Below are positions 1,543-18,961 of a DNA stretch of 64,000 nt, one piece after another; position 1 is the first letter of the stretch; every line of letters begins with the position of its first letter. The DNA is from Halarchaeum grantii (GTDB lineage Archaea > Halobacteriota > Halobacteria > Halobacteriales > Halobacteriaceae). Location of the stretch: positions 1 to 64,000 of the forward strand of contig NZ_BMPF01000004.1 in NCBI RefSeq assembly GCF_014647455.2, read 5' to 3'. Position numbers and translations under genes: made by a program. The notes beneath the pieces were generated by a model. That model worked only from the letters and a program-made list of their open reading frames with translations. It was not told the DNA's origin and did not search any database.

Positions 1543-3357
1543 ATGACTGAGACGTTTCTGACTGGAGATGAGGAATCTATTGATGAGCAAGGCCTCATCG
1601 CGGACGCTAGAGAGGACGTGTGTATTCTCCATATAGAAGACGATCAAAGCTTCTCCGAACTCGTCGCAACGTTTCTCCAGCGCGAACGCGACTACTTCAC
1701 AGTCAAGACCGAAAACGACCCCCAAGGTGGACTCAGCCGACTCGAAGAAGACGACGTGGACTGCGTGATCAGCGACTACGATATGCCGGGGATGAATGGC
1801 TTAGACGTCCTCAAACGGGTCCGAGAGAAGCATCCGGATATGCCGTTCATCCTGTTCACCGGTAAGGGTAGCGAGGAAATTGCCAGCGAAGCAATATCGA
1901 AGGGCGTCACCGAGTACTTGCAGAAGGGCGGCGGGACGGAACAGTACGAGGTCCTGGCCAACCGCATTGAACAAGCCGTGGCACGGAATCGGGCGGAGAA
2001 ACAAGTGACACGAGGGTTCCAGGCTATTGAAGCGGCACACGACGGTATCAGCCTCCTCGACGAAGACGGACAGTTCATCTACGTCAACGAGGCATACGCC
2101 GATATCACCGGGTATGACCGCGAGGAACTACTTGGCAAACATTGGGATCTCCTCTACCCGGAGAACGAACTCGACAGGGTCAATAAGGAGATGCTCCCCG
2201 AGGCCCGAGCGGATGAGTGGAAAGGGCGGACAATCTACACCCGAAAAGATGGCGACCCAGTCAAGGTCAACCACCGACTTGCCTACACGGAAGACGACAC
2301 ACTGATTTGCACAATCGCCGACATCCCAGAAGCTGAAGGGATACGAGAGGAGCTGTCGCTGAAGGAGCGCGCGATGGATGAAGCACCGATCGGGATAGTC
2401 ATTACGGACCCTAGTCAGGAAGATAATCCAATCATCTACGCGAACGACGGATTTGTTGCGCTGACCGGATACTCGCGGGATGAAGTCATCGGGCAAAACT
2501 GTCGGTTACTGCAGGGGGAGGAAACACGAGAGGAGCAGAAAGCGGAGATGCGAGAAGCCATTGATGACGCGGAGCCAGTCACCGTCGAACTGCGAAACTA
2601 TCGGAACAACGGCGAGTTATTCTGGAACCGCGTCAGCATCGCGCCACTTCTCGGCGAGAACGAAGAGCTAGACTATTTCGTCGGGTTTCAGCAAGACGTG
2701 ACTGAACGCCGTGCGGTACAAGAGCGGAACGAGGAATGGATTCAGACGATCCAGGAGCTCGGAGGGGTACTGGCGCATGACGTACAGACCCCACTCGATG
2801 TAATCCGGGGCCGACTGGAATTAGCGCGGGACACAGGTGACGTCGAACACCTCGAGGACGCAGAAGCGGCCCTTGATCGAGTGGAAGTTCTGACTGAGGA
2901 TCTGGCAGAGGTGATGCAAACCGGAGAGTTAGTAAATGAGAAGACGTCCGTCGACGTGTCCAGGTTGGTCAGGCATATATGGCGTACATTGGATGTAGGC
3001 GATGCGTCACTCGAAGTGGATACCGACATCCCCGAAGTGTATGCCGACGAGAAGGCGTTGCGGAGGATGTGTGAGAATCTGCTCGGGAATTCGTTGGAGC
3101 ATGGCGAGGAGGACGTAACGGTTCATGTTGGAAGACTAGACGAGGAGCCGGGGTTTTACGTCGAAGATGACGGCCCTGGAATTCCACAAGAGGATCGGGA
3201 AGATGTGTTTATGCCGGGGTTCACGACGAAGGAAGATGGCACTGGATTCGGAATGGTGAGTGTGGCGCAAATCGTTGCAGCACACGGCTGGCAGATTCGG
3301 ATACGGGACGGGATCGACGGCGGGACTCGGTTCGAAATATTCGCGACCACGATGTGA
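1543..3357 (+). CDS. hybrid sensor: receiver-PAS-PAS-histidine kinase
   Basis: This 604-residue soluble signalling protein has an N-terminal response-regulator receiver at about 26-145. The likely phospho-acceptor is Asp78 (SDYDMPG), with the LFTGKG threonine near 106 and a conserved Lys near 128. Two PAS domains follow at about 160-265 and 275-400. A dimerisation H-box (LAHDVQTPL, His412) precedes a C-terminal HATPase with an N-box near 511-516, DDGPGIP near 542 and GTGFGM near 566. No membrane segment is visible, so it probably senses a cytoplasmic cue through PAS (redox, light or a ligand). No partner regulator lies next to it. This architecture is common in haloarchaea. Confidence 0.92.
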   Translation: MTETFLTGDEESIDEQGLIADAREDVCILHIEDDQSFSELVATFLQRERDYFTVKTENDPQGGLSRLEEDDVDCVISDYDMPGMNGLDVLKRVREKHPDMPFILFTGKGSEEIASEAISKGVTEYLQKGGGTEQYEVLANRIEQAVARNRAEKQVTRGFQAIEAAHDGISLLDEDGQFIYVNEAYADITGYDREELLGKHWDLLYPENELDRVNKEMLPEARADEWKGRTIYTRKDGDPVKVNHRLAYTEDDTLICTIADIPEAEGIREELSLKERAMDEAPIGIVITDPSQEDNPIIYANDGFVALTGYSRDEVIGQNCRLLQGEETREEQKAEMREAIDDAEPVTVELRNYRNNGELFWNRVSIAPLLGENEELDYFVGFQQDVTERRAVQERNEEWIQTIQELGGVLAHDVQTPLDVIRGRLELARDTGDVEHLEDAEAALDRVEVLTEDLAEVMQTGELVNEKTSVDVSRLVRHIWRTLDVGDASLEVDTDIPEVYADEKALRRMCENLLGNSLEHGEEDVTVHVGRLDEEPGFYVEDDGPGIPQEDREDVFMPGFTTKEDGTGFGMVSVAQIVAAHGWQIRIRDGIDGGTRFEIFATTM

Positions 3358-5066: not shown

Positions 5067-5450
5067 ATGAGTGGAACCTTCGACGACCACGCGACGGCAC
5101 AGACCACACACCACCAGGGCGAGATTCGTTACATTGGCTCCCGGGAGCAGGGCGAGACGGTCGTGACGACGCACCCCGGTGGGCAGCGCCTCGCACCGGA
5201 GCGCAGCCTCCGAATTGCCCGGCATAGTCCGAGCGGATTCGCCGTCGGCTATCGCGGCAGCGGCCCGGCACAGCTCGCACTCGCCGTCCTCCTCGACTAC
5301 ACGGACAACGCCGCGCTCGCCCGCGAACACTATCAGACGTTCAAAGATGAGGTCGTCAGCCAACTCGAGTACGGTGCCGATGGCACCTGGACGCTCACCG
5401 ACGCCGATATCGAGCACGTCCTCCCCGACGACGTCGCACCAACTGCCTAA
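5067..5450 (+). CDS. DUF6166-like plasmid protein
   Basis: From ATG 5067 the product has 127 residues. It contains IRYIGSREQGETVV, then a typical SPSGFAVGYRGSGPAQLALAVLLDY segment and an REHYQTFKDEVVSQL helix. These features match the DUF6166 family, found on plasmids and viruses of haloarchaea. ATG 5067 is preferred over 5046 because the extra seven residues overlap the leader and look non-coding. It heads a run of small plus-strand genes (5466, 5792). Function unknown; accessory replicon biology is an inference from distribution. Confidence 0.7.
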   Translation: MSGTFDDHATAQTTHHQGEIRYIGSREQGETVVTTHPGGQRLAPERSLRIARHSPSGFAVGYRGSGPAQLALAVLLDYTDNAALAREHYQTFKDEVVSQLEYGADGTWTLTDADIEHVLPDDVAPTA

Positions 5451-5465
5451 CCACCTCCACTGACA

Positions 5466-5729
5466 ATGTCCGATACGACTAATTCTTCGAGCGATGCGAC
5501 CGCCGACCAGCCGACCGAAACCCAGCACGTCGAACGCACCGACGTCGGCGTCTCAATCACCGTTCAACTCAAACGTGGCTCCGGAACGCGCGACGAAGAC
5601 AAAATCAAGGGCAAAGTGAAAGCCGAGACGCTCGCCGACGCCCAAGAGGACATGGACGTCCTTCGGGAGTATCTGCATCGGATCGCTGAGGATGCACGAC
5701 AGATCCAACCAGAAGTCAGGGACGACTAA
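5466..5729 (+). CDS. small acidic plasmid protein, DUF7389-like
   Basis: This 87-residue protein has a low-complexity Ser/Thr/Asp N-terminus, the pattern VERTDVGVSITVQLKRGSGTRDEDKIKGK, and a helical C-terminus. It resembles a widespread haloarchaeal plasmid family (DUF7389, assigned from memory). It starts 16 bases after the DUF6166-like gene and is likely co-transcribed with it. No enzymatic motif is seen. Confidence 0.6.
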   Translation: MSDTTNSSSDATADQPTETQHVERTDVGVSITVQLKRGSGTRDEDKIKGKVKAETLADAQEDMDVLREYLHRIAEDARQIQPEVRDD

Positions 5730-5791
5730 GGGCGAGCGTCAAGGACTCCGGTAGCGTTTGTCGTCGCCGCGAGCGGGTGAGGCGTACATTC

Positions 5792-6004
5792 ATGCCTGGC
5801 CAAAAGAGCGACGACGCGAGTGTTCTGACGCCCGAACAGCGACTCACACCGGAGAATCTCGACGTCCTCCGCGCGTGCATCGTGACGATTCCCGATATCG
5901 AGACCGCCCGAGCGTGTGTCGCCTACGAGAACGCGCATCAGAATCGTGAACCGATCCTTCGGCGGCTCGCACAGAGAGCGAGCGAACTTCGAGATGAGAA
6001 GTGA
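5792..6004 (+). CDS. small hypothetical protein
   Basis: The reading frame encodes 70 residues from ATG 5792: a charged N-terminus and a mostly helical body (LTPENLDVLRACIVTIPDIETARACVAYENAHQ). It follows the 5466 gene by 62 bases and ends 18 bases before the convergent PemK-like gene. No family is recognised. Codon use and acidic content fit a real haloarchaeal gene. Confidence 0.5.
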   Translation: MPGQKSDDASVLTPEQRLTPENLDVLRACIVTIPDIETARACVAYENAHQNREPILRRLAQRASELRDEK

Positions 6005-6403: not shown

Positions 6404-6825
6404 CAGTGGTCCGAGGACTGCTGGGCAGCACGGTTCTCGCCGGACTGCTCCTCGTCGTCCGTCTCTGAGGGGTGTAGCTGATCCGGTTGTGCGTCCGCCC
6501 ACGCCTCTGCCTCCTCCTCACTCGCGATAAGAGGCCCATGCTCAAGTGTGAGCGTCGAGAGGAGATCGGAGAACCGAATCGCTTCCGCAACCCGACTGAG
6601 GTCGCGGGTGAGCGCCCAATGGTGCTTGCGGTGCCGAACGAGCCCTCTCTCCTTGAGCCGTGAGAGGTTCGACCCGACCGTGTTCGGATTGCGGTCGATC
6701 GCGGTCGCGATTTCACTCCGAGTGAACGCGGCATCGCGGTTCTCGAGGAGAAACTCGATGATGAGTTCAGCGGTCGTCCGCTCCGCCTCCTCGCCGTCTT
6801 CAAACTCCTCGATATCGATCGGCAT
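6403..6825 (-). CDS. winged-helix regulator, putative antitoxin of the PemK-like pair
   Basis: From ATG 6825 the protein has 140 residues. A winged helix spans about 15-75 (TAELIIEFLLENRDAAFTRS, then IDRNPNTVGSNLSRLKERGLV). An acidic, disordered C-terminal tail could wrap around the toxin. It precedes the toxin with overlapping TGATG. The upstream in-frame extension to 6942 overlaps the divergent gene's leader and was rejected. The related gene at 18962 has the same architecture (EIASQIGVDESAVSTALSRL). Autoregulation is likely for this class. Confidence 0.7.
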   Translation of the reverse strand: MPIDIEEFEDGEEAERTTAELIIEFLLENRDAAFTRSEIATAIDRNPNTVGSNLSRLKERGLVRHRKHHWALTRDLSRVAEAIRFSDLLSTLTLEHGPLIASEEEAEAWADAQPDQLHPSETDDEEQSGENRAAQQSSDH

Positions 6826-6929
6826 ACCGCCTAGTACGGTGTGCTGGTGGATAAGTGTGCGGGTGAATGGGTGTGCTTCCTGCACGGTCCAGTTTATCGA
6901 GCCACCCGAGAGGGCGGAGGCATTCAGTG

Positions 6930-7232
6930 ATGAGCGATACACCAGATCCAGAGATTCACCATCAAGCAGCGTTCAGTGACGATGGCGGGCTTGAAGTCCA
7001 GGAGTCGAGCGTCGAAACGTCTCTCGAGGATTTCGGCGCCGACGTCGACCATCGCGACCGTGAATCCCGACGCGATCGACCTGAGGCTAGCGAGTTCGGC
7101 GTCGACGACCGCCCCGAAGTACAAGACTCAAGTGAGTATGACGAGCAGGCCGCGCTCTTCCCCGACACCGACGACGACCAGCAGACGCTCACCGGCGAAA
7201 ACGCCGCGACACGCTGTCTCTTCGACGACTGA
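6930..7232 (+). CDS. small acidic hypothetical protein
   Basis: This is a 100-residue, strongly acidic and probably disordered protein starting MSDTPDPEIHHQAAFSDDG and ending with DEQAALFPDTDDDQQTLTGE and a short tail. It is divergent from the winged-helix antitoxin, sharing a 105-bp promoter region. No domain is recognised. An inverted TTAACCAACA pair lies 30 bases after its stop. Confidence 0.5.
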   Translation: MSDTPDPEIHHQAAFSDDGGLEVQESSVETSLEDFGADVDHRDRESRRDRPEASEFGVDDRPEVQDSSEYDEQAALFPDTDDDQQTLTGENAATRCLFDD

Positions 7233-7261
7233 TCACGATCCGATTGACAACCAGTATCTGA

Positions 7262-7303
7262 TTAACCAACAGAAAACCTGAGGTGATACAAATTGTTGGT
7301 TAA
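7262..7303. repeat. inverted pair TTAACCAACA / TGTTGGTTAA, copy 2
   Basis: The arms are 7262-7271 and 7294-7303 with a 22-bp spacer, the same geometry as copy 1. Each arm extends by one more paired base (ATTAACCAACA with TGTTGGTTAAT). It lies between two convergent genes, directly touching the stop of the PIN gene at 7304, so it cannot be a promoter element of either neighbour. Confidence 0.8.
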
Positions 7304-7855
7304 TTAGTCCTCGGGATACCCGTCAGCTTCGACGAGCTCGATAACGTCCCAGACCGTGAGGACAGAGATGTAGTCCTCGTAGTACGTATTCGAGAGAATC
7401 GCTCGAATTGTTGCTTCCGCGTTCCGGTCGTCCATGACGATTCCGATGGAGTCGTAGGCAGTCGAGGCGAGGAGCATGATTGCGGTGCCGGCGAGGCCAG
7501 CATCGGTCTTCCGCAATTCGTCTGGTGGCACATGCTCAATGTCGGCGAGACGTTGCTGGATGCGGTCCATCACGACTGCCGCCGTCGGACCATCATAGAC
7601 ACTCACACCCTCTTGCACGGGCTGGGCGGTGCTAATCCAGGACTCGGACTGCGCCTTGTGCAGCCAATCGGCACTGATCCAGCCCTGCTGCTCCTCGATT
7701 TCTTCGCAAACACGCTGACTCAGATAGAGCTGGATCCCGTTGCTCTTGACGTGATTTATGAAGGCCTGATAGCGATCGTGGCCAGGGCCGCCGAGCGTCC
7801 GGAGAAAGCTCGTATCCAAGACGAGTGCATTTGGCAGGGGCGAAATCGCGCTCAC
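7304..7855 (-). CDS. PIN-like domain protein, putative toxin
   Basis: This 183-residue protein shows the acidic motif order of a PIN-fold nuclease: Asp14 in ALVLDTSFLRTLG, Glu residues in CEEIEEQQG, an Asp in KTDAGLAGTAIMLLA and a final Asp pair in IGIVMDDRNAEA. PIN proteins are metal-dependent RNases and often toxins. Its start overlaps the stop of the upstream winged-helix gene by four bases, so the two are probably a coupled toxin-antitoxin-like operon. It is longer than VapC (about 130 residues), so it is a divergent PIN subgroup. Confidence 0.65.
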   Translation of the reverse strand: MSAISPLPNALVLDTSFLRTLGGPGHDRYQAFINHVKSNGIQLYLSQRVCEEIEEQQGWISADWLHKAQSESWISTAQPVQEGVSVYDGPTAAVVMDRIQQRLADIEHVPPDELRKTDAGLAGTAIMLLASTAYDSIGIVMDDRNAEATIRAILSNTYYEDYISVLTVWDVIELVEADGYPED

Positions 7856-8472
7856 GCGTCAACAACGTAGGGAGCGTCAGCGATCGTTCGCTCGTGGACG
7901 TCATCGCCATGGTTGGGGAATGCAGGGTCAACCGGACTAATGCGACCGATGATCGCTTCGATGGCCTGTGAGACTGCGATACCTGCGGCAGCGGGAACAT
8001 CAAGCGCCGCAGCAATGCCACGGCGTGTCTGCTCACCCCGAAGATACGCGTCCGTCTCACCGACCGCGTTGAGTAACGCCGCGTCCCCATAGCGCTCGCG
8101 GAAATACGCGATATCGTCGTTGGCCGTGCTTGCCCCATAGACCGCAATGATGACCGGTGAGACGACGAGTTCGCCGGTCTCTGTCTCCCACGTCCCGACG
8201 ACTGGCTCGACCGTCCAGAGCGCGGCGCCGTCCTCGTACTCATCACGTTCCTCGGCGACGCCGAGCTCAGCCAGCTCGTTCGCGTACTTGTACGCAGTGC
8301 TCTTCACGATACCCTGGCGGTCCATCGCTCGTTTCACCGTCGTCGGCGAGTTCAGGAGGAGATCAGTGTAGAAGTAGGCGAGATCGGCGTCTGTTAGGAG
8401 TCGCTGCACAGCGAAAAACATCGAGACGCCCGACTCGTCACGTCCGACGTCTCCAATCGGTGCACCAGCCAT
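7852..8472 (-). CDS. winged-helix protein paired with the PIN gene
   Basis: The product has 206 residues. An N-terminal winged helix spans about 20-95 (TDADLAYFYTDLLLNSPTTV, then KSTAYKYANELAELGVAEE), followed by a domain containing VVSPVIIAVYGASTANDDIAYFRERYG and an Ala-rich C-terminus. The family resembles haloarchaeal DUF7437-type proteins that precede PIN genes. It overlaps the PIN start (ATGA on the minus strand), which argues for a joint role as antitoxin or autoregulator. No metal-binding residues are apparent. Confidence 0.65.
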   Translation of the reverse strand: MAGAPIGDVGRDESGVSMFFAVQRLLTDADLAYFYTDLLLNSPTTVKRAMDRQGIVKSTAYKYANELAELGVAEERDEYEDGAALWTVEPVVGTWETETGELVVSPVIIAVYGASTANDDIAYFRERYGDAALLNAVGETDAYLRGEQTRRGIAAALDVPAAAGIAVSQAIEAIIGRISPVDPAFPNHGDDVHERTIADAPYVVDA

Positions 8473-8534
8473 TGTAGTCCATAGTACGCGAACTAGAGAC
8501 TAAAGGATTGCGCTGCCGCGAACAGGTTTGTTGG

Positions 8535-8552
8535 CCCCGGGAGGGGTGCGGG
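8535..8552 (+). promoter_or_regulatory. C-rich leader hairpin with GNRA loop, copy 2
   Basis: CCCC at 8535-8538, GGGA at 8539-8542 and GGGG at 8543-8546 form the same short GNRA-capped stem as at 5019-5030, again followed by TGCGGG. It precedes the ArdC-type gene by about 40 bases. It could be a translation-control or RNA-stability element. Confidence 0.4.
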
Positions 8553-8586
8553 CGCGCCCGCGAGGCGCGTCGTCGCGATCACATCC

Positions 8587-9522
8587 ATGAGTGACGCACA
8601 AACAGAGGCAGCAGTCGCGTTCGAGGATTCGAGCTCGCGAAGTGAATCGATGACCGAGACGATCGAGGCGTGGGTTGAGGACCTCATCACGCACGTCGAG
8701 GAGGCACGCGGAAGCGAGGCGTTCCAAGAGTGGCTGGACGTACAGAGTCGGTTCCACGACTACTCCTACCGAAACACTCTCCTGATCACCCTCCAGTGTC
8801 CGGAGGCGACGAAGGTCGCGGGCTACCGAGCGTGGCAAGAGGAGTTCGACCGATACGTCCAGGAAGGCGAGAGCGCCATCTGGATCTGGGCACCCATCAT
8901 TACGAAGCAATGCCCGGAGTGCGAGAACTCGCCGAACTACCACGAACGGAGTGATTGTGAGTACGACGAGACGCCACCGGAGGAGTGGTCAGAGGGACTC
9001 GTCGGCTTTCGGCCGGCATCGGTCTTCGACGTCTCGCAGACCGAAGGTGAGCCACTCCCCGAACTCGAGACGGCGGCGACCGGCGACGCCGGCGACCTCG
9101 TCGCAGTCCTCGAAGACGCAGCTTCGGAACTCGACGTCGAGGTGCGCATCGTCGACGCCGACGAGTGGATCCATGGGCAGGCAGAGGGTATCTGCAAGCC
9201 ACGTCAGTCAGACGAATCACCACTTGTTGAGGTTCGTGGTCGTGCGAATGAGGCTGACCTCGCGGTGACGCTCGTCCACGAACTCGCACACGCCCTCCTC
9301 CATGGCGCCATCAGCGACCCACTGGCGCGCTCCGAGCAGGAACTCGAAGCCGAGGCCGTCGCATACATCGTCGGCCGCCACTGTGACCTTGACACAAGCA
9401 ATTCGTCGTTCTACCTCGCTGCTTGGGCCGGCGACGATCCTGAGGCAATCCGGGAGCGATTCGGCCGAATCAGCCGGACAGCCCAACAGCTCATCGACGT
9501 CGTTGATTCTGAAACCGCATAG
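8587..9522 (+). CDS. ArdC-like N-terminal domain fused to ImmA/IrrE (M78) metallopeptidase
   Basis: This 311-residue protein has an ArdC-type N-terminal domain at about 20-150 (FHDYSYRNTLLITLQCPEATK, GYRAWQEEF, SAIWIWAPI). It carries a four-Cys insert (CPEC...C) and a C-terminal M78 peptidase with the HELAHALLHG zinc site and a downstream EAEAVAYIVG helix. ArdC proteins protect incoming plasmid DNA from restriction, and M78 peptidases cleave regulators. The combination suits a plasmid gene acting during DNA entry. Both domains look intact. Confidence 0.8.
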   Translation: MSDAQTEAAVAFEDSSSRSESMTETIEAWVEDLITHVEEARGSEAFQEWLDVQSRFHDYSYRNTLLITLQCPEATKVAGYRAWQEEFDRYVQEGESAIWIWAPIITKQCPECENSPNYHERSDCEYDETPPEEWSEGLVGFRPASVFDVSQTEGEPLPELETAATGDAGDLVAVLEDAASELDVEVRIVDADEWIHGQAEGICKPRQSDESPLVEVRGRANEADLAVTLVHELAHALLHGAISDPLARSEQELEAEAVAYIVGRHCDLDTSNSSFYLAAWAGDDPEAIRERFGRISRTAQQLIDVVDSETA

Positions 9523-12995: not shown

Positions 12996-13068
12996 ATCGA
13001 GGGCATGTAAGAAGAGAACTAATGTATGCCGGATCTACCTACCATTTACCCCGCTATGACTTGTACAT

Positions 13069-13503
13069 TTAATCGAATTTCTGTCGACGTGCCTCAAGTG
13101 CTTTTTCGACGATGAGGTCGGTGACTTCGGGAATGGTGCGAGCGATTGCGTCGTCAAGCTCGCGACCCGTGATGTCTTTGACGCCGTGGTCGCGGAGTTT
13201 GCGTTTCACCTCGAAGTCGAGCGCTTCCTCCCATTCGTCCCAAGATTCTGGCCGGGGATAGACGGCTTTCTGCTGGACGGCGTCGAACTCGAATGCGGGA
13301 CCGGATTCGGCCGGGTCTACCTCAGGTGAGGTACCTGAGGTGGCTGAGTCAGCTGAGGTATCTGTGGTAGCTGGCTCTGGTCCAGTACCCGAGACAGCTG
13401 CCGCATCTGAGTCAGATGCCGAGTCCGTCACCGATCGATCGGCTTCCGTGTCCTTCTCGTCGTCATCAACGCCAATGCTGGCGAAGCGGTTGTCGTCAGG
13501 CAT
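13069..13503 (-). CDS. ParA-partner protein (putative ParB-like or centromere-binding)
   Basis: The product has 144 residues: a conserved N-terminus (PDDNRFASIGVDDD), a long Ser/Thr/Ala/Asp low-complexity linker at about 20-75 and a C-terminal helical domain (WDEWEEALDFEVKRKLRDHG, then ITGRELDDAIARTIPEVTDLI). It starts inside the last codons of parA (eight-base overlap), a coupling seen in partition operons. The DNA encoding the linker is itself rich in CTGAGGTA-like palindromes (13322-13375). No ParB HTH is recognised, so the assignment rests on context. Confidence 0.65.
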   Translation of the reverse strand: MPDDNRFASIGVDDDEKDTEADRSVTDSASDSDAAAVSGTGPEPATTDTSADSATSGTSPEVDPAESGPAFEFDAVQQKAVYPRPESWDEWEEALDFEVKRKLRDHGVKDITGRELDDAIARTIPEVTDLIVEKALEARRQKFD

Positions 13504-14329
13504 CAACATCACCTCGTTCGACGATATCCGCAAGTTCATCCAGTCGCGGCAGCTGGTCGTTCTCCGGGTCGTACGCAGCGAGCGGTTTCCCCTCACGATA
13601 TGCACGGCCGAACGCGACCCGCTTTCGAAGTCCCGGCCCAGGAGACTCGTCAAACTGCTCGGAGCGCGCAAACTTCGGAAGGCGATCAGCCCACGGGGAG
13701 TCTTCGATATCGCGAATAATGCGTTTCTCCTCCCCGTCGCCCTCGAGAATATTGGGAACGAGTGCAAGGACGTGCACGTCGATACCGCCCTCGTTGCGGA
13801 GCGGTTGGAGTTGCTGTTCGACCATCCGCTGGAACCCCGAGATTGACGCTTCTCGCATCTTCAGTGGAACGAGGACATGTTCGGTGCCGACAAGCGCCGA
13901 ATCAGAGAGCGGCCCGATGCTCGGTGGGCTGTCAATGATGATGTAGTCGTACTCGTCGCCGAGCAACGGATCAATGATGTAGTTGCGCACACGCGTGACT
14001 CCGTATGCGCTTGTCCGAAGCTGGTTCTCGACCTCATCAAGGTCGCGATGGCTCGGAATGACGTCCATCCACTCAGTGTGACGGATGAGGTCGTGGATTT
14101 CGACGTCAGAATCTGCATCCCAGACATCGCCGAGGTTCGCATCCGCCTCGTAATACTCCTCGAGGCCAACACCTTCGGTGGCGTTCCCCTGCTGGTCGAG
14201 GTCGACGAGGAGAACGTCGTGGCCACGTGCATCAAGTCGTTCGGCGACGTTGATCGCGACAGTCGTCTTTCCGACGCCGCCCTTCTGCAGGGCGACGGTC
14301 ACCGCCCGTGGTTCTACTGAATCGGCCAT
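13496..14329 (-). CDS. parA: ParA-family partition ATPase
   Basis: This 277-residue protein has the deviant Walker A KGGVGKTT at 16-23, switch I DLDQQGNAT at 43-51 and the Walker B region DYIIIDSPPSIGPL. It lacks the N-terminal HTH of type Ia ParA and so resembles type Ib/soj-like proteins. Such ATPases move plasmid copies along the nucleoid with a centromere-binding partner, here the overlapping 13069 gene. The promoter region carries nested palindromes at 14377-14416, likely operator or centromere sequence. Confidence 0.92.
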   Translation of the reverse strand: MADSVEPRAVTVALQKGGVGKTTVAINVAERLDARGHDVLLVDLDQQGNATEGVGLEEYYEADANLGDVWDADSDVEIHDLIRHTEWMDVIPSHRDLDEVENQLRTSAYGVTRVRNYIIDPLLGDEYDYIIIDSPPSIGPLSDSALVGTEHVLVPLKMREASISGFQRMVEQQLQPLRNEGGIDVHVLALVPNILEGDGEEKRIIRDIEDSPWADRLPKFARSEQFDESPGPGLRKRVAFGRAYREGKPLAAYDPENDQLPRLDELADIVERGDVDA

Positions 14330-14376
14330 ACCGAACCCACAGTAGCCAACATAGTAAAGCTACCTACGCCACCCAC

Positions 14377-14416
14377 CCCACCTAAGGTACCTAAGCTAGC
14401 TAACTCAGATGAGGTG
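14377..14416. promoter_or_regulatory. nested palindromes upstream of parA (putative operator or parS)
   Basis: CCACCT near 14377 pairs with AGGTGG near 14411. Between them lie the palindromes AGGTACCT and TAGCTAGCTA. Related palindrome-rich sequence (AGGTACCT, TCAGCTGA) also occurs within the coding region of the partner gene at about 13322-13375. Repeats of this type are expected where a partition protein binds. Position about 50-90 bases upstream of parA fits autoregulation. Confidence 0.4.
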
Positions 14417-14533
14417 GTTAGAGAGGTTGAAAAGGGGTACAGAGGCGTGAAATGCTAGCTAGGCAGCGCACTCGTATCCAAGAGTCACCCCAGCGGAACC
14501 ACCATGCGGTCTCTCCTCAAAGATCAATCGAGA

Positions 14534-14724
14534 CACCACACTATTTCATACCAGATTGGGTATCAACCCCATATAAAATCAGCCACCGCGCTATTTCATA
14601 CCAGATCTCGCGAAGGGCAGGTTCAAGCTTAAAGAACAGCACCCCGCCGTTTCATCCCAATCAGAGCTAGAGCCGCAGACGGGTTGAGTTAAAAATACAC
14701 CACCCCCACTATTTCATACCAAGT
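14534..14724 (+). repeat. iteron-like direct repeats, CACC-C-CTATTTCATACCA
   Basis: Three strong copies of CACC(A/G/C)C(A/G/C)CTATTTCATACCA start at 14534, 14584 and 14701, and a degenerate fourth lies at about 14639 (CCGTTTCATCCCA). The spacing is roughly 50-62 bp. They lie between parA and the Orc1 C-terminal stub. Iterons of this kind mark plasmid origins or incompatibility loci, so this may be a second, perhaps dead, origin. Confidence 0.65.
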
Positions 14725-14742
14725 GCGAGAGTGTCCCATACA

Positions 14743-15126
14743 TTACTTCCACGAATCAACACTGGATTGCGTCTGCGTGGCCTCACGAGCCGTTGATTGT
14801 TGGCCCGCAAAGGACTCAAGCTCGTCAATGAGTTCTGTCGAGAGGAGGTCGGACCTTTCAGGCATCCCTGACGGTTCTGTCTCACCGAGGACGCGGAGTA
14901 TCATCTCGTAGTCAACCGTATCGAGTTCGTAGACGTATCCGGACTTCCCAGGGCCGCCATAGTTGTCCTTGCGGTTGAGCAGGCCTAGCTGGTACATTTC
15001 CTTGAGGTAGTCCGCTACCCGCCGCTTCGACGTCGTCTTATCAAGGAGTTCGCCCGAGAGCTGCTTGTACTTCGGGTAGAGGCTTTCACGGCTGATCGGC
15101 GTCTCGTCACGGATATCGTGCAACAT
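14743..15126 (-). CDS. Orc1/Cdc6 C-terminal winged-helix stub
   Basis: The 127 residues resemble the C-terminal winged-helix domain of archaeal Orc1/Cdc6 (DETPISRESLYPKYKQLSGE, TTSKRRVADYLKEMYQLGLL, GYVYELDTVDYEMILRVLGE). Upstream of ATG 15126 the frame stays open to 15222 with more Orc-like residues (RDRIYEVTSDFDEQQKVTLS) but has no usable start. The AAA+ ATPase is absent. It is therefore a truncated initiator. As a free winged helix it could still bind the adjacent iterons and compete with the full-length Orc. Confidence 0.65.
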   Translation of the reverse strand: MLHDIRDETPISRESLYPKYKQLSGELLDKTTSKRRVADYLKEMYQLGLLNRKDNYGGPGKSGYVYELDTVDYEMILRVLGETEPSGMPERSDLLSTELIDELESFAGQQSTAREATQTQSSVDSWK

Positions 15127-15308
15127 GATGACGCTGAGTGTTACTTTCTGCTGCTCGTCAAAGTCAGATGTGACCTCGTAAATCCGATCGCGTTCCTTCT
15201 CCTCCTGATCTCTCTTCTCCTGTTACTGGCTGGTTCGATACCGCTGTCCCTACTCATCCACACGGGAAAACAAATCAATAGGGGTGTCTGTCTCCCCCTT
15301 CTCGATAC

Positions 15309-15629
15309 CTACTCCCCATCCTCAACAGGGCCCTTGTATTTCGAAGTGACCTTGTCCCCCTCTCGCCACTGCCAGTAGTAGTAGCGGTTGTCGTTAATCT
15401 CCTTGATGGTAAGCGTCGCTCGCGTCGGAACGTCGTCCGGGAGCTCTTCGGGGCGGTCCGCTACTTCGTCTTGGTCGTCCTCTGCAAGCCGAGCCTCTCG
15501 CTCACGGTACTCGGCAAGCGCGTCAGCATAGCGCTCAACCGCTCGGAGTTCCTCCGCCGAACAGCCCTCCAGTGATTCGACGAGGTCACTCGAGAGTTCC
15601 TGTGGTGGTGTCGGTGGTGAATCGGACAT
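15309..15629 (-). CDS. conserved haloarchaeal protein, DUF6788-like
   Basis: The product has 106 residues from ATG 15629. A helical N-terminal half (SSDLVESLEGCSAEELRAVE) is followed by an acidic linker and the conserved C-terminal block TIKEINDNRYYYWQWREGDK with SKYKGPV. This block is typical of small haloarchaeal and viral DUF6788-like proteins. An inverted TTAACCAACA pair lies about 15 bases upstream of the start, where it could act as an operator. Confidence 0.6.
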   Translation of the reverse strand: MSDSPPTPPQELSSDLVESLEGCSAEELRAVERYADALAEYREREARLAEDDQDEVADRPEELPDDVPTRATLTIKEINDNRYYYWQWREGDKVTSKYKGPVEDGE

Positions 15630-15642
15630 CGTATGGGGCGCC

Positions 15643-15683
15643 TTAACCAACTGACACGGAGATTGCTTAGGTGTGTTGGTTAA
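15643..15683. repeat. inverted pair TTAACCAACT / TGTTGGTTAA, copy 3
   Basis: The arms are 15643-15652 and 15674-15683 with a 21-bp spacer. Pairing extends outward to CCTTAACCAAC and GTTGGTTAAGG. One arm differs at the innermost base (T for A). It lies just upstream of the minus-strand 15309-15629 gene. Confidence 0.8.
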
Positions 15684-15785
15684 GGCCCTGGAACAGCCAT
15701 CAAACCACGAACAGACATCTTCCAGAGCCGGCTTAGGTCGCGGTTTGTACCTGTCTTCTTGTTAGCTGTTACACTCTGATGCCGT

Positions 15786-15953
15786 ATGTCGGATCTTGTC
15801 GTTAAGGCTGCGGTGAAGGATGCACTGGCAGAGAAGAACGTCGCCGGTGATTTCTACGCGGCGCTGGACGAGGAAGTCGAAGAGCTCCTGGAGGAAGCAG
15901 CGGCACGCGCTGAGTCGAATGGGCGTAAGACCGTCCAGCCGCGCGACCTCTAG
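15786..15953 (+). CDS. histone-fold NFYB/HAP5-type small protein (DUF1931-like)
   Basis: This 55-residue protein reads LVVKAAVKDALAEKNVAGDF, then ALDEEVEELLEEAARRAESN and RKTVQPRDL. The pattern is a single histone fold of the NFYB/HAP5 (DUF1931) type found throughout haloarchaea, ending in the typical TVQPRDL motif. It probably dimerises and binds DNA, acting as a small architectural or regulatory protein. It is flanked on both sides by the TTAACCAACA inverted pairs at 15643 and 16014. Confidence 0.8.
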   Translation: MSDLVVKAAVKDALAEKNVAGDFYAALDEEVEELLEEAAARAESNGRKTVQPRDL

Positions 15954-16013
15954 ACAGGGTCTCGACACTCTTTTCACTTGACGCTCGCCCGCTAGTTGGG
16001 CGTTCTCCCTATA

Positions 16014-16056
16014 TTAACCAACAGCGACCTGGTTTTCACGTTCTCTCGTTGGTTAA
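16014..16056. repeat. inverted pair TTAACCAACA / GTTGGTTAA, copy 4
   Basis: The arms are 16014-16023 and 16047-16056 (nine of ten paired, innermost base C) with a 23-bp spacer. A worn reading frame starts directly at its right edge. Confidence 0.75.
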
Positions 16057-16228
16057 CTCTCCTACCGGGGAGTTTCGGGAAGGCAGCTATCTGGCCGCGG
16101 GACACGTCCGTATCGGATTTACGTTAGTGCCCCAGCGCGAGAGCGGCGCCGGCGTGTCAACCAAGTACTTTGGAACGGTCGCCGGCAAGGACGGCTTCAA
16201 AATCGTAGACACCCCGTTTGCAAAGTGA
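16057..16228 (+). pseudogene. 3' remnant of an unknown protein gene
   Basis: From the right edge of the inverted pair an open frame without a start codon reads SPTGEFREGSYLAAGHVRIG and STKYFGTVAGKDGFKIVDTP, ending in a TGA that lies inside the first CCCCGTTTGCAAAGTGA box. Codon use is that of a normal haloarchaeal gene. The family is not recognised. The 5' part appears to have been removed at or near the 16014-16056 site. Confidence 0.4.
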
Positions 16229-16327
16229 GATTGACAGCGGACTTCCACAAGAAGGGGAGGCCCCGTTTGCAAAGTGAGATTGACAGCGGACTTCCACAAG
16301 AAGGGGAGGCCCCGTTTGCAAAGTGAG
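16212..16327 (+). repeat. 49-bp tandem repeats carrying the origin box
   Basis: CCCCGTTTGCAAAGTGAG occurs at 16212, 16261 and 16310, with two identical 31-base intervening sequences, giving two full 49-bp units and a partial third. Because the intervals are identical this is not a CRISPR array. The same box flanks the AT-rich core upstream of orc. These boxes may bind Orc and titrate or activate it. Confidence 0.85.
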
Positions 16328-16343
16328 CAGTCGAAGTCTGCCG

Positions 16344-17699
16344 TTAGGAAGCGAACTCCTTGAGATTCGATCGGGCAATCGTTTTAATCGTCTCTTCGTC
16401 CTCGATAATCTCCGAAAGGAGAGGGTCATCCTTCGCAATAATTTGAACGATCGATTTTGGGTTGAGATGAGGAAACGCGTATTCTGAGAACATCCCCTGC
16501 TCGTTCCCACGTCCACGTCGGTTATTCTTGATGACCTCGTACGTCGAGAGCTCCCGCATCCACCGCAGATAGCTGTGCTTCGAGCGCACCTCCGAGTTCG
16601 ACTGTTCCTGAACCCATCGATACAGTGTGTATCCCACAGAAGAAGGGACACAGTTCGAACGAAGGATCGGTTCTCGTTCCAGAACCGGATCGCCATGAAT
16701 CGCGACGAGAGCTGTCGCGAGGAGAGAAACTTGCTTCTGATGGGAGACTTTCTCGACGATATCGGCGACGTAGTTCTTTTCGACTTCATCACGCGCCTGC
16801 TCCACGTGCCGTTCAAGAACCATGTCGTCCTCAAGGCGGTTGACGATGTTACCAGCTTCACGGAGGAGATCAATGGCAAATCGAGCGTCACCCTCCCCCT
16901 GAGCGCTAGCGGCAGCGACGAGCTCAATTACGCCGTCACCGAGAACACCCTCTCGGAAAGCATCACGGCGGTATTCGAGGATCTCGGTTAGTTCGTACGC
17001 ATCGTAGTCATCGAAGGAGATTTCAGAGGGATTGAACGTGCTGGCGGTCCGAGAGTTGAGTCCATCCATGAGGCTCCTCGGACTATTCGTCGTCACGATC
17101 AGAGAGATAGAGGAGTCCATGTTCCCGATCCGTTTCGATCGAGTAAGATTGTAGAGAATATCCGAGAAGGCGGGAACTTCGTCCTTGGCGCGTGTCTCAC
17201 CGACCAGGAGGTCCAGTTCGTCGAGGACGACGATAGCGAGGTCAAGATGTTCGTCGATGATTTCGAAGATACGGTCGTACTTCGAGCTGGTAGAGATACC
17301 GCGCTTTGCGGTCTGCTCGAGGTTGAGACTCGCTTCAAGAGAATGCGCGATCTGGTGTACAGCCTCGTGTTCCGATTTCTTGTGTTTTCCGTTGACCTCA
17401 ATATACTCGATTTCGATGCCTCTCTCGGCGCCGATTTCCATCGTCTTGTTGGCGACGGTTCCGGCACAAAGCGTCTTCCCGGTCCCAGACGGACCACGTA
17501 GGAGCATATCCTCTGGGTGCTCGTCGTGGAGAGCAGGCTTGAGAGTATTAATGATGAGATTGAGCTGTTCATCACGACCGACGATGCGGTCTTCATCGAC
17601 GATGGTCTCTGGTTCGATGAGATCCTTGTTTCGGAAAACGGAGTGATAGTCTCCGGCTAACTGCTCCGAGATGGAGAGCGGTCCTGACTCATCAGACAT
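16344..17699 (-). CDS. orc: Orc1/Cdc6 replication initiator
   Basis: This 451-residue initiator has Walker A GPSGTGKT at 69-76, Walker B AIVVLDELDLL at about 155-165, sensor 1 LIVTTNSP near 203-210 and a C-terminal winged helix from about 310. It is full length, with all AAA+ motifs intact, and should recognise the CTCACTTTGCAAACGGGG boxes around it. A partial box (CTCACTTTGCAA, 17714-17725) lies 15 bases upstream of the ATG, consistent with autorepression. It is the probable main replication initiator of this replicon. Confidence 0.95.
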   Translation of the reverse strand: MSDESGPLSISEQLAGDYHSVFRNKDLIEPETIVDEDRIVGRDEQLNLIINTLKPALHDEHPEDMLLRGPSGTGKTLCAGTVANKTMEIGAERGIEIEYIEVNGKHKKSEHEAVHQIAHSLEASLNLEQTAKRGISTSSKYDRIFEIIDEHLDLAIVVLDELDLLVGETRAKDEVPAFSDILYNLTRSKRIGNMDSSISLIVTTNSPRSLMDGLNSRTASTFNPSEISFDDYDAYELTEILEYRRDAFREGVLGDGVIELVAAASAQGEGDARFAIDLLREAGNIVNRLEDDMVLERHVEQARDEVEKNYVADIVEKVSHQKQVSLLATALVAIHGDPVLEREPILRSNCVPSSVGYTLYRWVQEQSNSEVRSKHSYLRWMRELSTYEVIKNNRRGRGNEQGMFSEYAFPHLNPKSIVQIIAKDDPLLSEIIEDEETIKTIARSNLKEFAS

Positions 17700-18032
17700 A
17701 CACAGGACATCACCTCACTTTGCAATAACCCTTTCGACGATATGCAGAGTTAGGCGGATACCCTCACCCCGTTTGCAAAGTGAGCCAGGGGACAAGAAGA
17801 GATGGCAGTTGGAACAGAGCAGAAAACCATATAGGTATAACTATTGGTAATCAGTAAACGGTTCCAGGTACTGCAGTACGGATTTAGTTTATCTACCATA
17901 TACATAAATCCTTCTCTAATTCAGGGTCACTTCAGCTGGTCATCAAGGGTCATTCTCGTGGATTACCTGCTTACACCCGCACCGGGTCATCTACCGCTCG
18001 TTCTTTTTCGCTAGCTCACTTTGCAAACGGGG
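17700..18032. other. predicted replication origin: AT-rich core between inverted ORB boxes
   Basis: CCCCGTTTGCAAAGTGAG at 17767-17784 faces its exact reverse complement at 18015-18032. The interval contains an AT-rich run at about 17818-17925 (TATAGGTATAACTATT and TTTATCTACCATATACATAA), suited to duplex opening. A half box lies at 17714. An AT-rich core flanked by inverted origin-recognition boxes next to orc is the standard haloarchaeal origin layout. Three further boxes lie beyond the 3' end of orc at 16212-16327. Confidence 0.8.
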
Positions 18033-18065
18033 AGGGGGTGGAAAACGGACATCACTCAACAACGA

Positions 18066-18205
18066 CTACATTGGAAGTCGACCATCCGGCCGTGGGACTC
18101 GTCCGTGCTTGATTTCGTGGTCGACGCGACGGAGATGCTTGCAACCACCGTCGGGTTCGCGCTGTTGGTAGTCCGGACAGGAGCACGTCTCGGCGACGAA
18201 CCTCG
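18066..18205 (-). pseudogene. SWIM zinc-finger protein, C-terminal fragment
   Basis: The minus strand encodes AETCSCPDYQQREPDGGCKH and LRRVDHEIKHGRVPRPDGRL, the CxC-xn-CxH signature of a SWIM zinc finger. Upstream it runs into the transposase fragment on the other strand, so the N-terminal part is lost. The element insertion probably truncated it. Confidence 0.5.
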
Positions 18206-18510
18206 ACGTCGACGACGAAACGTTGTCAGATCGGAGTGAGACGGAGGGGATAATTAATCGATATAGCCGTCGCTGGGGCATCGAGAACAGCTATAAGACG
18301 ATCAAGGATTGCCTCGCAATGACCACGAGTAAGAACTTCTCAGTGCGGTGGTTCTACTTCGGATTCGCCGTCCTACTCTACGATATGTGGCTGCTCGTGG
18401 ACTTCGTCATCCAAGTGAGTTTAGACTGCGTCGAGCAGCGGACGAAGCCTCGCCTCCCTGCGAGGCGGTTCCTCGAGTTCGTTCGCTCGTCGCTGCTCGT
18501 CCCACCGTAA
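18180..18510 (+). pseudogene. IS4-like transposase, C-terminal fragment
   Basis: The frame reads VSATNLDVDDETLSD, then INRYSRRWGIENSYKTIKDC, LAMTTSKNFSVRWFYFGFAV and a C-terminal tail with ARRFLEFVRSS. The YxxRWxIExxYKxIK signature carries the third catalytic acid of IS4-type DDE transposases (YREK motif). The first two catalytic Asp regions are missing. This is the 3' end of an insertion sequence that has lost its 5' part. Confidence 0.7.
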
Positions 18511-18961
18511 CCTCGTGAAGAGGCCGGTGTGAGCGGGTGGCGAGAGGCATCGCTATCGACTCGTCGAGAAAAATCACCGGTTTTGCAACGAACTCGGTTT
18601 TCCGGTCGGTTTCTCGGAGGCTGAACGGGCTCGATCGGGGTAACAGAGGCACGAATCGTCGAACCATGGGCCAAATTTCGCGGGTTCTCGTGCACATTCG
18701 GAGCGACTGGGGTATCTATAGTTCCGAACGACAGAAATTGTGCACGAGATCCGTGACTAGCTCTCGGTCGAAATGGTCCTGTACGCCCTTCCCACTGAGA
18801 ACTCGAAACCACGACAAACTGGTAAGCCTACACACCACTGAGAATGCACACCGACAAAATCTGTGCATGAACCTTGCTCATGCTGAATCGGGAACTCACT
18901 CTACTTTCACTCATCTCACGTCTAACACTCTTATCGATGGATGTCCTAGTAGCACACAACA
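18511..18961. other. 450-bp intergenic stretch after the transposase remnant
   Basis: No gene is supported. An inverted repeat CTCGTGCACA (18687-18696) and TGTGCACGAG (18739-18748) encloses 42 bases. It may be an element end or an operator. The rest is probably the decayed 3' flank of the insertion sequence and the promoter of the winged-helix gene. Confidence 0.4.

Follow-up and report, generated by a model that had tools for sequence, protein, structure and literature searches.

In Haloarcula hispanica, the ARS activity of each origin depends on its own adjacent cdc6 gene, according to PMC3936714. The same paper describes oriC2D, an ORB-rich element downstream of cdc6E that has no origin activity and reduces replication from oriC2, likely by titrating Cdc6E, and reports poor replication of an oriC2 plasmid in a strain that had lost oriC2-cdc6E and still had oriC2D. 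Two further origins of H. hispanica are broken, as described in PMC4441112. In oriC4-cdc6G a 203-bp loss removed the promoter and 75 bp of coding sequence and the origin is silent, and the disrupted oriC5-cdc6H includes a stand-alone winged-helix fragment, Cdc6H_C (HAH_4250). Decay of this kind is already known from salt-loving archaea. A literature search returned nothing on replication origins of Halarchaeum and, in the titles and opening lines of abstracts that it covered, no report of an array retained after the natural loss of an origin.

Herein we analyze a stretch of 64,000 nucleotides from Halarchaeum grantii (contig NZ_BMPF01000004.1, positions 1 to 64,000), referred to as the window. 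We propose that part of it is very probably a disrupted orc/cdc6-adjacent replication origin, of which the downstream repeat array and the tail of the orc gene remain. The replicon that carries the window is probably a plasmid, as its counterpart in Halarchaeum sp. CBA1220 is one.

Results

The repeat array and the Orc remnant

The initial annotation had described repeats next to a C-terminal stub of an Orc1 protein, with a full Orc and different boxes 1.2 kb away, and this arrangement is borne out by the positions of the repeats, by a match of the stub to Cdc6_C and by the presence of a second Orc (Table 1). The forward strand has three exact copies of the 13-mer CTATTTCATACCA, at 14541, 14591 and 14709, together with the degenerate form CCGTTTCATCCCA at 14647; the start-to-start spacing of the four is 50, 56, and 62 bp. 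These are the only three places with the exact 13-mer in the 3.02-Mb assembly. No 13-mer was found three times within 200 bp in any of 100 first-order Markov simulations of the window, and in the real window such clusters are formed only by this repeat family and by the boxes of the second Orc. With up to three mismatches the whole-window count is unremarkable (7 against 5.2 expected, with 27 of 100 shuffles reaching 7), and because this tolerant count is ordinary it is clustering and exactness that carry the signal. No further copies were found in the genome, where two single one-mismatch matches compare with three for a reversed control pattern. All four repeats are in the forward orientation, and AT content within the remnant reaches at most 0.62 over 60 bp, so the inverted ORBs and the AT-rich trough that are seen in relatives are absent here.

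Table 1. Features of the H. grantii locus, in window coordinates.
Feature	Position	Strand	Remarks
ORB-like repeat 1	14534–14553	+	Core TTTCATACCA as in CBA1220, G-string half altered
ORB-like repeat 2	14584–14603	+	Core same as in CBA1220, G-string half altered
ORB-like repeat 3	14640–14659	+	Degenerate, TTTCATCCCA; likewise in CBA1220
ORB-like repeat 4	14702–14721	+	Identical to CBA1220
Stretch homologous to last 153 residues and stop codon of 550-aa Orc	14743–15204	-	Residues 398–550
127-aa ORF	14743–15126	-	Only translatable form of the stub; without the first quarter of Cdc6_C
Junction	15205–15312		About 100 bp unmatched, replacing about 1.9 kb of CBA1220 (locus L004, about 6725–8670: Orc N-terminus, upstream repeats, AT-rich stretch)
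Conserved 107-aa protein	15309–15629	-	Beside Orc genes in several haloarchaeal replicons
Three downstream boxes of second Orc, CCCCGTTTGCAAAGTGAG	16212–16327	+	Starts at 16212, 16261, 16310
Second Orc, intact, 451 aa	16344–17699	-	97% identical in CBA1220 and H. acidiphilum
Upstream boxes of second Orc	17767–18032		One forward (17767), one inverted (18015)

Directly adjacent to the array there is no intact orc/cdc6 gene with AAA+ and winged-helix domains, only the last 153–155 residues of one. The open frame below 15222 gives a Cdc6_C (PF09079) match with an E value of 6e-8, and BLAST homology to the intact Orc stops at 15204, not at 15222. The first matching residues, EEKERDR, correspond to Orc residue 398, with the profile match beginning at 395. 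The stop-free open frame over 153 codons and its strongly conserved core might suggest a functional stub protein that binds DNA and is a competitor for the repeats, but we consider this very improbable. The sole usable start codon is the ATG at 15126, inside the winged-helix domain, and upstream of it there is no ATG, GTG, or TTG before the stop codon. The 127-aa product that would result loses Cdc6_C positions 1–24, matching positions 25–87 of 96 with 22.9 bits, below the Pfam cut-off of 25.1, compared to 33 bits over positions 2–87 for the full 153-residue homologous stretch. Structure models were of too low confidence to decide the matter, with mean pLDDT values of 48.3 for the 127 residues that lack the first helix and 59.6 for the 153 residues. 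The upstream region with the native promoter has also been deleted (see below). Hence a regulatory role of the stub is unlikely, as a product made from its only start codon would lack the beginning of the winged helix.

An intact counterpart in Halarchaeum sp. CBA1220

A search of plasmid DNA revealed one close relative of this region, plasmid pCBA1220-02 of Halarchaeum sp. CBA1220 (NZ_CP054709.1), which aligns with the window at 83% identity in two collinear blocks, window 14479–15204 and from 15335 onward. Between the two blocks, pCBA1220-02 contains the rest of a 550-aa Orc (termed herein the first Orc) and its upstream region. This Orc is flanked by four downstream repeats, to which the four repeats of the window correspond, and by four upstream repeats, three in the same orientation and one inverted. 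The window is therefore a case in which a collinear intact homologue exists and a segment is missing: it is short of approximately 1.9 kb that in CBA1220 comprises the N-terminal 397 residues of the Orc and its promoter side, together with the AT-rich stretch and the inverted repeat. The two loci share the order of array, Orc, 107-aa protein, 55-aa histone-fold protein and second Orc at about 83% DNA identity, and they differ in that CBA1220 has the complete Orc with its upstream origin and another ParA region to the left. An apparent ATPase gene fragment, noted by eye directly to the left of the repeats in CBA1220 (L004, about 5440–5985), is absent from the window.

To the right of the junction, BLAST identity restarts at 15335, and the next gene ends at 15309. 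Neither the plasmid collection nor the remainder of the genome contains a match to the 108 bp of the junction, apart from a 22-bp inverted match (20 of 22 positions) to CBA1220 (L004 5964–5985) that is possibly due to chance. While such an unmatched stretch might be expected if the assembly had joined two separate places, an artefact of this type is extremely improbable, as both sides are collinear with CBA1220 at the identity given above and the missing N-terminal part is found nowhere else in the 97%-complete assembly. Of this Orc the genome contains only residues 395–549 (92% identical to CBA1220), and none of its remaining Orcs exceeds 45% identity to the missing part.

Pairing of repeat and Orc type in relatives

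A scan of genome contigs with an alignment of four Orcs yielded 13 loci, consisting of seven close relatives (48.5–99.5% identical) and six distant ones from other archaea (30–34% identity). Counting TTTCATACCA with up to one mismatch, overlapping matches included, within 1 kb of the gene, the close relatives have 6–12 copies near the gene and 0–2 elsewhere in the locus, compared to 0–1 for the six distant Orcs. The individual counts are 6 in Halarchaeum acidiphilum, 8 in H. nitratireducens, 11 in Halapricum sp. CBA1109, 10 in Natronocalculus amylovorans, 12 in Halobacteriaceae archaeon SHR40, and 6 in each of two near-identical MAGs, one of which is labelled Nitriliruptoria. All seven close relatives have an upstream copy that faces the others, located at -245 to -1188 (the last value being that of the MAGs, beyond 1 kb), and in the upstream 1 kb of all seven there is an AT-rich stretch of 0.72–0.83 AT over 60 bp. 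Downstream repeats are present in five of the seven and there are none within 1.5 kb in the MAGs (L065 and L066); in H. acidiphilum a single downstream repeat is seen, with the contig ending 42 bp past the gene.

The usual form of the repeat in this Orc subtype is CCCCCACTWTTTCATACCA, i.e., with the G-string, a term taken from PMC3528665. The Natronocalculus repeats have no C-run and no G-string. In two more distant Orcs, those of genomes G212 and G244 (38–42% identical), no such repeat with up to two mismatches was found in the stretches scanned. Since the MAGs are without a downstream array over 1.5 kb and these two Orcs are without the repeat, the pairing is limited to the close family. The ORB-like repeats of the window match the type of the adjacent Orc, with the G-string half partly altered. 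The analysis defines an Orc subtype together with its repeat, which is useful for predicting origins and incompatibility groups of haloarchaeal plasmids. The Halarchaeum Orcs also have about 50 extra residues before Walker B relative to the Orcs of SHR40 and Natronocalculus (about residues 175–245 of the L063/L064 Orc).

Other identities for the repeats were rejected. A parS site for the neighbouring ParA does not fit, as these repeats also surround the full Orc where the adjacent genes are different, and as they are conserved in CBA1220 although its ParA has only 42% identity. No Rfam model matches at its gathering threshold in 13000–18500, which argues against an RNA element, and of a viral source there was no indication, with 51 stretches of viral contigs matching a pattern and none of them encoding a relative.

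The second Orc module and its surroundings

The second Orc is presumably the working initiator of the replicon. Upstream of it the AT peak is only 0.65 over 60 bp, below the values of the intact first origins. Searches with the first and the second Orc revealed no other Orc matches on the 181-kb contig of the window; elsewhere in the same genome there is another Orc-like stretch, with stop codons (contig C9, 56172–56601).

The 107-aa protein, which has no Pfam match, adjoins different Orc types in several genera (L005 7166–7489, L008 6981–7304, L067 4868–5146 and 7967–8287), and in Halapricum it is found on both sides of the Orc. In H. acidiphilum (L058 3094–4332) a third Orc type lies beside the 107-aa gene, in the place that the first Orc has in CBA1220. 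Between the two Orcs a 55-aa protein (window 15786–15953) shows a weak histone-fold match and is 93–96% identical in Halarchaeum relatives. Beyond the second Orc, 306 bp (window 18290–18595) are 95% identical to H. nitratireducens (L059 10777–11081) and by eye resemble a transposase fragment.

Distribution and history of the two modules

In a protein search with the CBA1220 Orc (412 plasmid records), only CBA1220 itself exceeded 60% identity. Among 391 genomes of the class, the full first Orc (E up to 1e-60) is found in six, stub matches (E up to 1e-8) in 13, and the second Orc (E up to 1e-130) in four, and apart from the genome of the window no sampled genome is in both the full-first-Orc and the second-Orc lists. 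Genome G001, which is outside this sample, has both Orcs on different contigs. Within the genus (four genomes), the full first Orc is present in two of the three genomes other than that of the window, at 93 and 99% identity to that of CBA1220, the stub is in the window genome, and G003 has neither. The second Orc is found in the window genome and in G001 (97%), with nothing above 31% in G002 and 40% in G003.

The two modules are neighbours in CBA1220. H. nitratireducens has the first module and lacks the second, and in H. acidiphilum, where the modules are on different contigs, the first directly adjoins the sequence found on the far side of the second in CBA1220. The second module of CBA1220 is flanked by 65-bp direct repeats (L004 9484–9548 and 11504–11568), which we take to be the 3′ part of a SWIM-like zinc-finger gene. 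H. nitratireducens has one copy (L059, about 3053–3117), bordered on the left as the inner CBA1220 copy is and on the right as the outer one is, and this single hybrid copy is compatible both with recombination between the two repeats and with a locus that had not yet received the insertion. Because the modules are found apart in other genomes and H. nitratireducens has only the first, the locus is likely a composite of separable modules able to lose either partner, the order of events being a reconstruction. H. nitratireducens would be the counter-case to the window, as the two have kept opposite halves, the first and the second module, respectively.

Decay or retention of the remnant

A comparison of the window with CBA1220 shows no difference over the 40 positions of the repeat cores, seven over the 40 positions of the G-string half and 38 over the 108 positions of the spacers. 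In the stub, parsimony with three sequences, after setting aside 15 sites with three states, assigns 21 substitutions to the window branch, 14 synonymous and seven nonsynonymous, and 56 synonymous and 12 nonsynonymous to the other two branches together. Of the seven, one nonsynonymous change on the window branch also occurs in H. nitratireducens. The nonsynonymous share on the window branch is not significantly above that on the other branches (Fisher p = 0.14), and 14 of 21 synonymous changes far exceeds the 23–28% of a neutral sequence (P 2e-5 to 2e-4); therefore most of the changes in the stub arose under constraint. By rough arithmetic, about a tenth of the window branch could have been neutral. 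The remnant shows little decay, a point against a broken origin, which leaves a recent deletion or the continued retention of some part as explanations. We infer that the origin was probably broken recently.

Another reading is that the four ORBs have been retained as a titrator that lowers the replication of incoming plasmids of the lost-origin type, a form of incompatibility. Like oriC2D, the array is the downstream one, and oriC2D kept in the H. hispanica delta-oriC2-cdc6E strain lowered the level of an oriC2 plasmid (PMC3936714). The cores have not changed over the divergence from CBA1220, an intact-origin plasmid exists in the same genus, and the intact gene is in two more of its genomes. 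The reading is nevertheless unlikely: oriC2D has 11 ORBs and the array only four, of which one is degenerate, the G-string half has changed at the seven positions noted above, and a recent deletion accounts for the intact cores equally well. Moreover, no second C-terminal-only copy was found among the 391 class genomes, where the three other stub matches of at least 48% are in open frames of 500–551 aa. It is similarly doubtful that the replicon, having dropped one of two adjacent origins, uses the titrating array of that origin for permanent incompatibility with plasmids of the lost type. As a titrating array, the repeats could act on such a plasmid, and if true this would be the natural counterpart of the engineered delta-oriC2-cdc6E strain.

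Discussion

We favor a broken origin with the following history. The intact form consists of an upstream origin, with inverted ORBs and an AT-rich stretch, followed by the 550-aa Orc and then by a downstream array in which these ORBs all point the same way. The upstream origin, the promoter side and the AAA+ part of the Orc were taken by a deletion of about 1.9 kb, with about 100 bp of unmatched DNA at the join, and the four downstream ORBs and the tail of the Orc gene remain. Without its Orc, the array would be unable to start replication, and the plasmid would presumably replicate from the neighbouring intact Orc module. As judged from the sequence, the remnant has probably lost its origin activity.

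Of the interpretations offered in the initial annotation, the fossil origin of a cointegrate plasmid is well supported, given that full-length Orcs with this C-terminus carry the repeats, that the CBA1220 locus is intact and that the two modules occur separately elsewhere. A search that it had proposed, for full-length Orcs with this C-terminus and matching iterons, found them, for example in CBA1220 and close relatives. A second origin is not supported, as the array that remains is on the non-origin side and the ATPase part of the initiator, the inverted repeat and the AT-rich stretch are gone. Nor does the anatomy lend support to the stub as an incompatibility or copy-number factor, with its start codon inside the domain and none upstream. 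With an intact close relative at hand, the locus documents the loss of one Orc origin from a replicon that had two of them next to each other.

The locus is very probably a broken origin of a known kind, with precedents in H. hispanica in the form of a silent origin, a winged-helix-only fragment and oriC2D. The disrupted origins of H. hispanica have in common with it an orc/cdc6 gene in which a segment was lost or became separated, a fragment with only the winged helix (Cdc6H) and intact homologues in relatives. The Cdc6H pieces, however, are about 123 kb apart in H. hispanica, whereas in the window the C-terminal piece is still next to its own ORB array and the assembly contains no N-terminal piece, and ARS activity was tested in H. 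hispanica while the loss of the origin in the window is read from the sequence. The array of the window is, like oriC2D, an ORB cluster in the intergenic region directly downstream of an orc/cdc6 gene, but oriC2D has eleven repeats and the window array four, and in the window the origin and the initiator to be controlled are gone. In this respect the layout of the remnant is that of the H. hispanica delta-oriC2-cdc6E strain with oriC2D kept, as described in PMC3936714.
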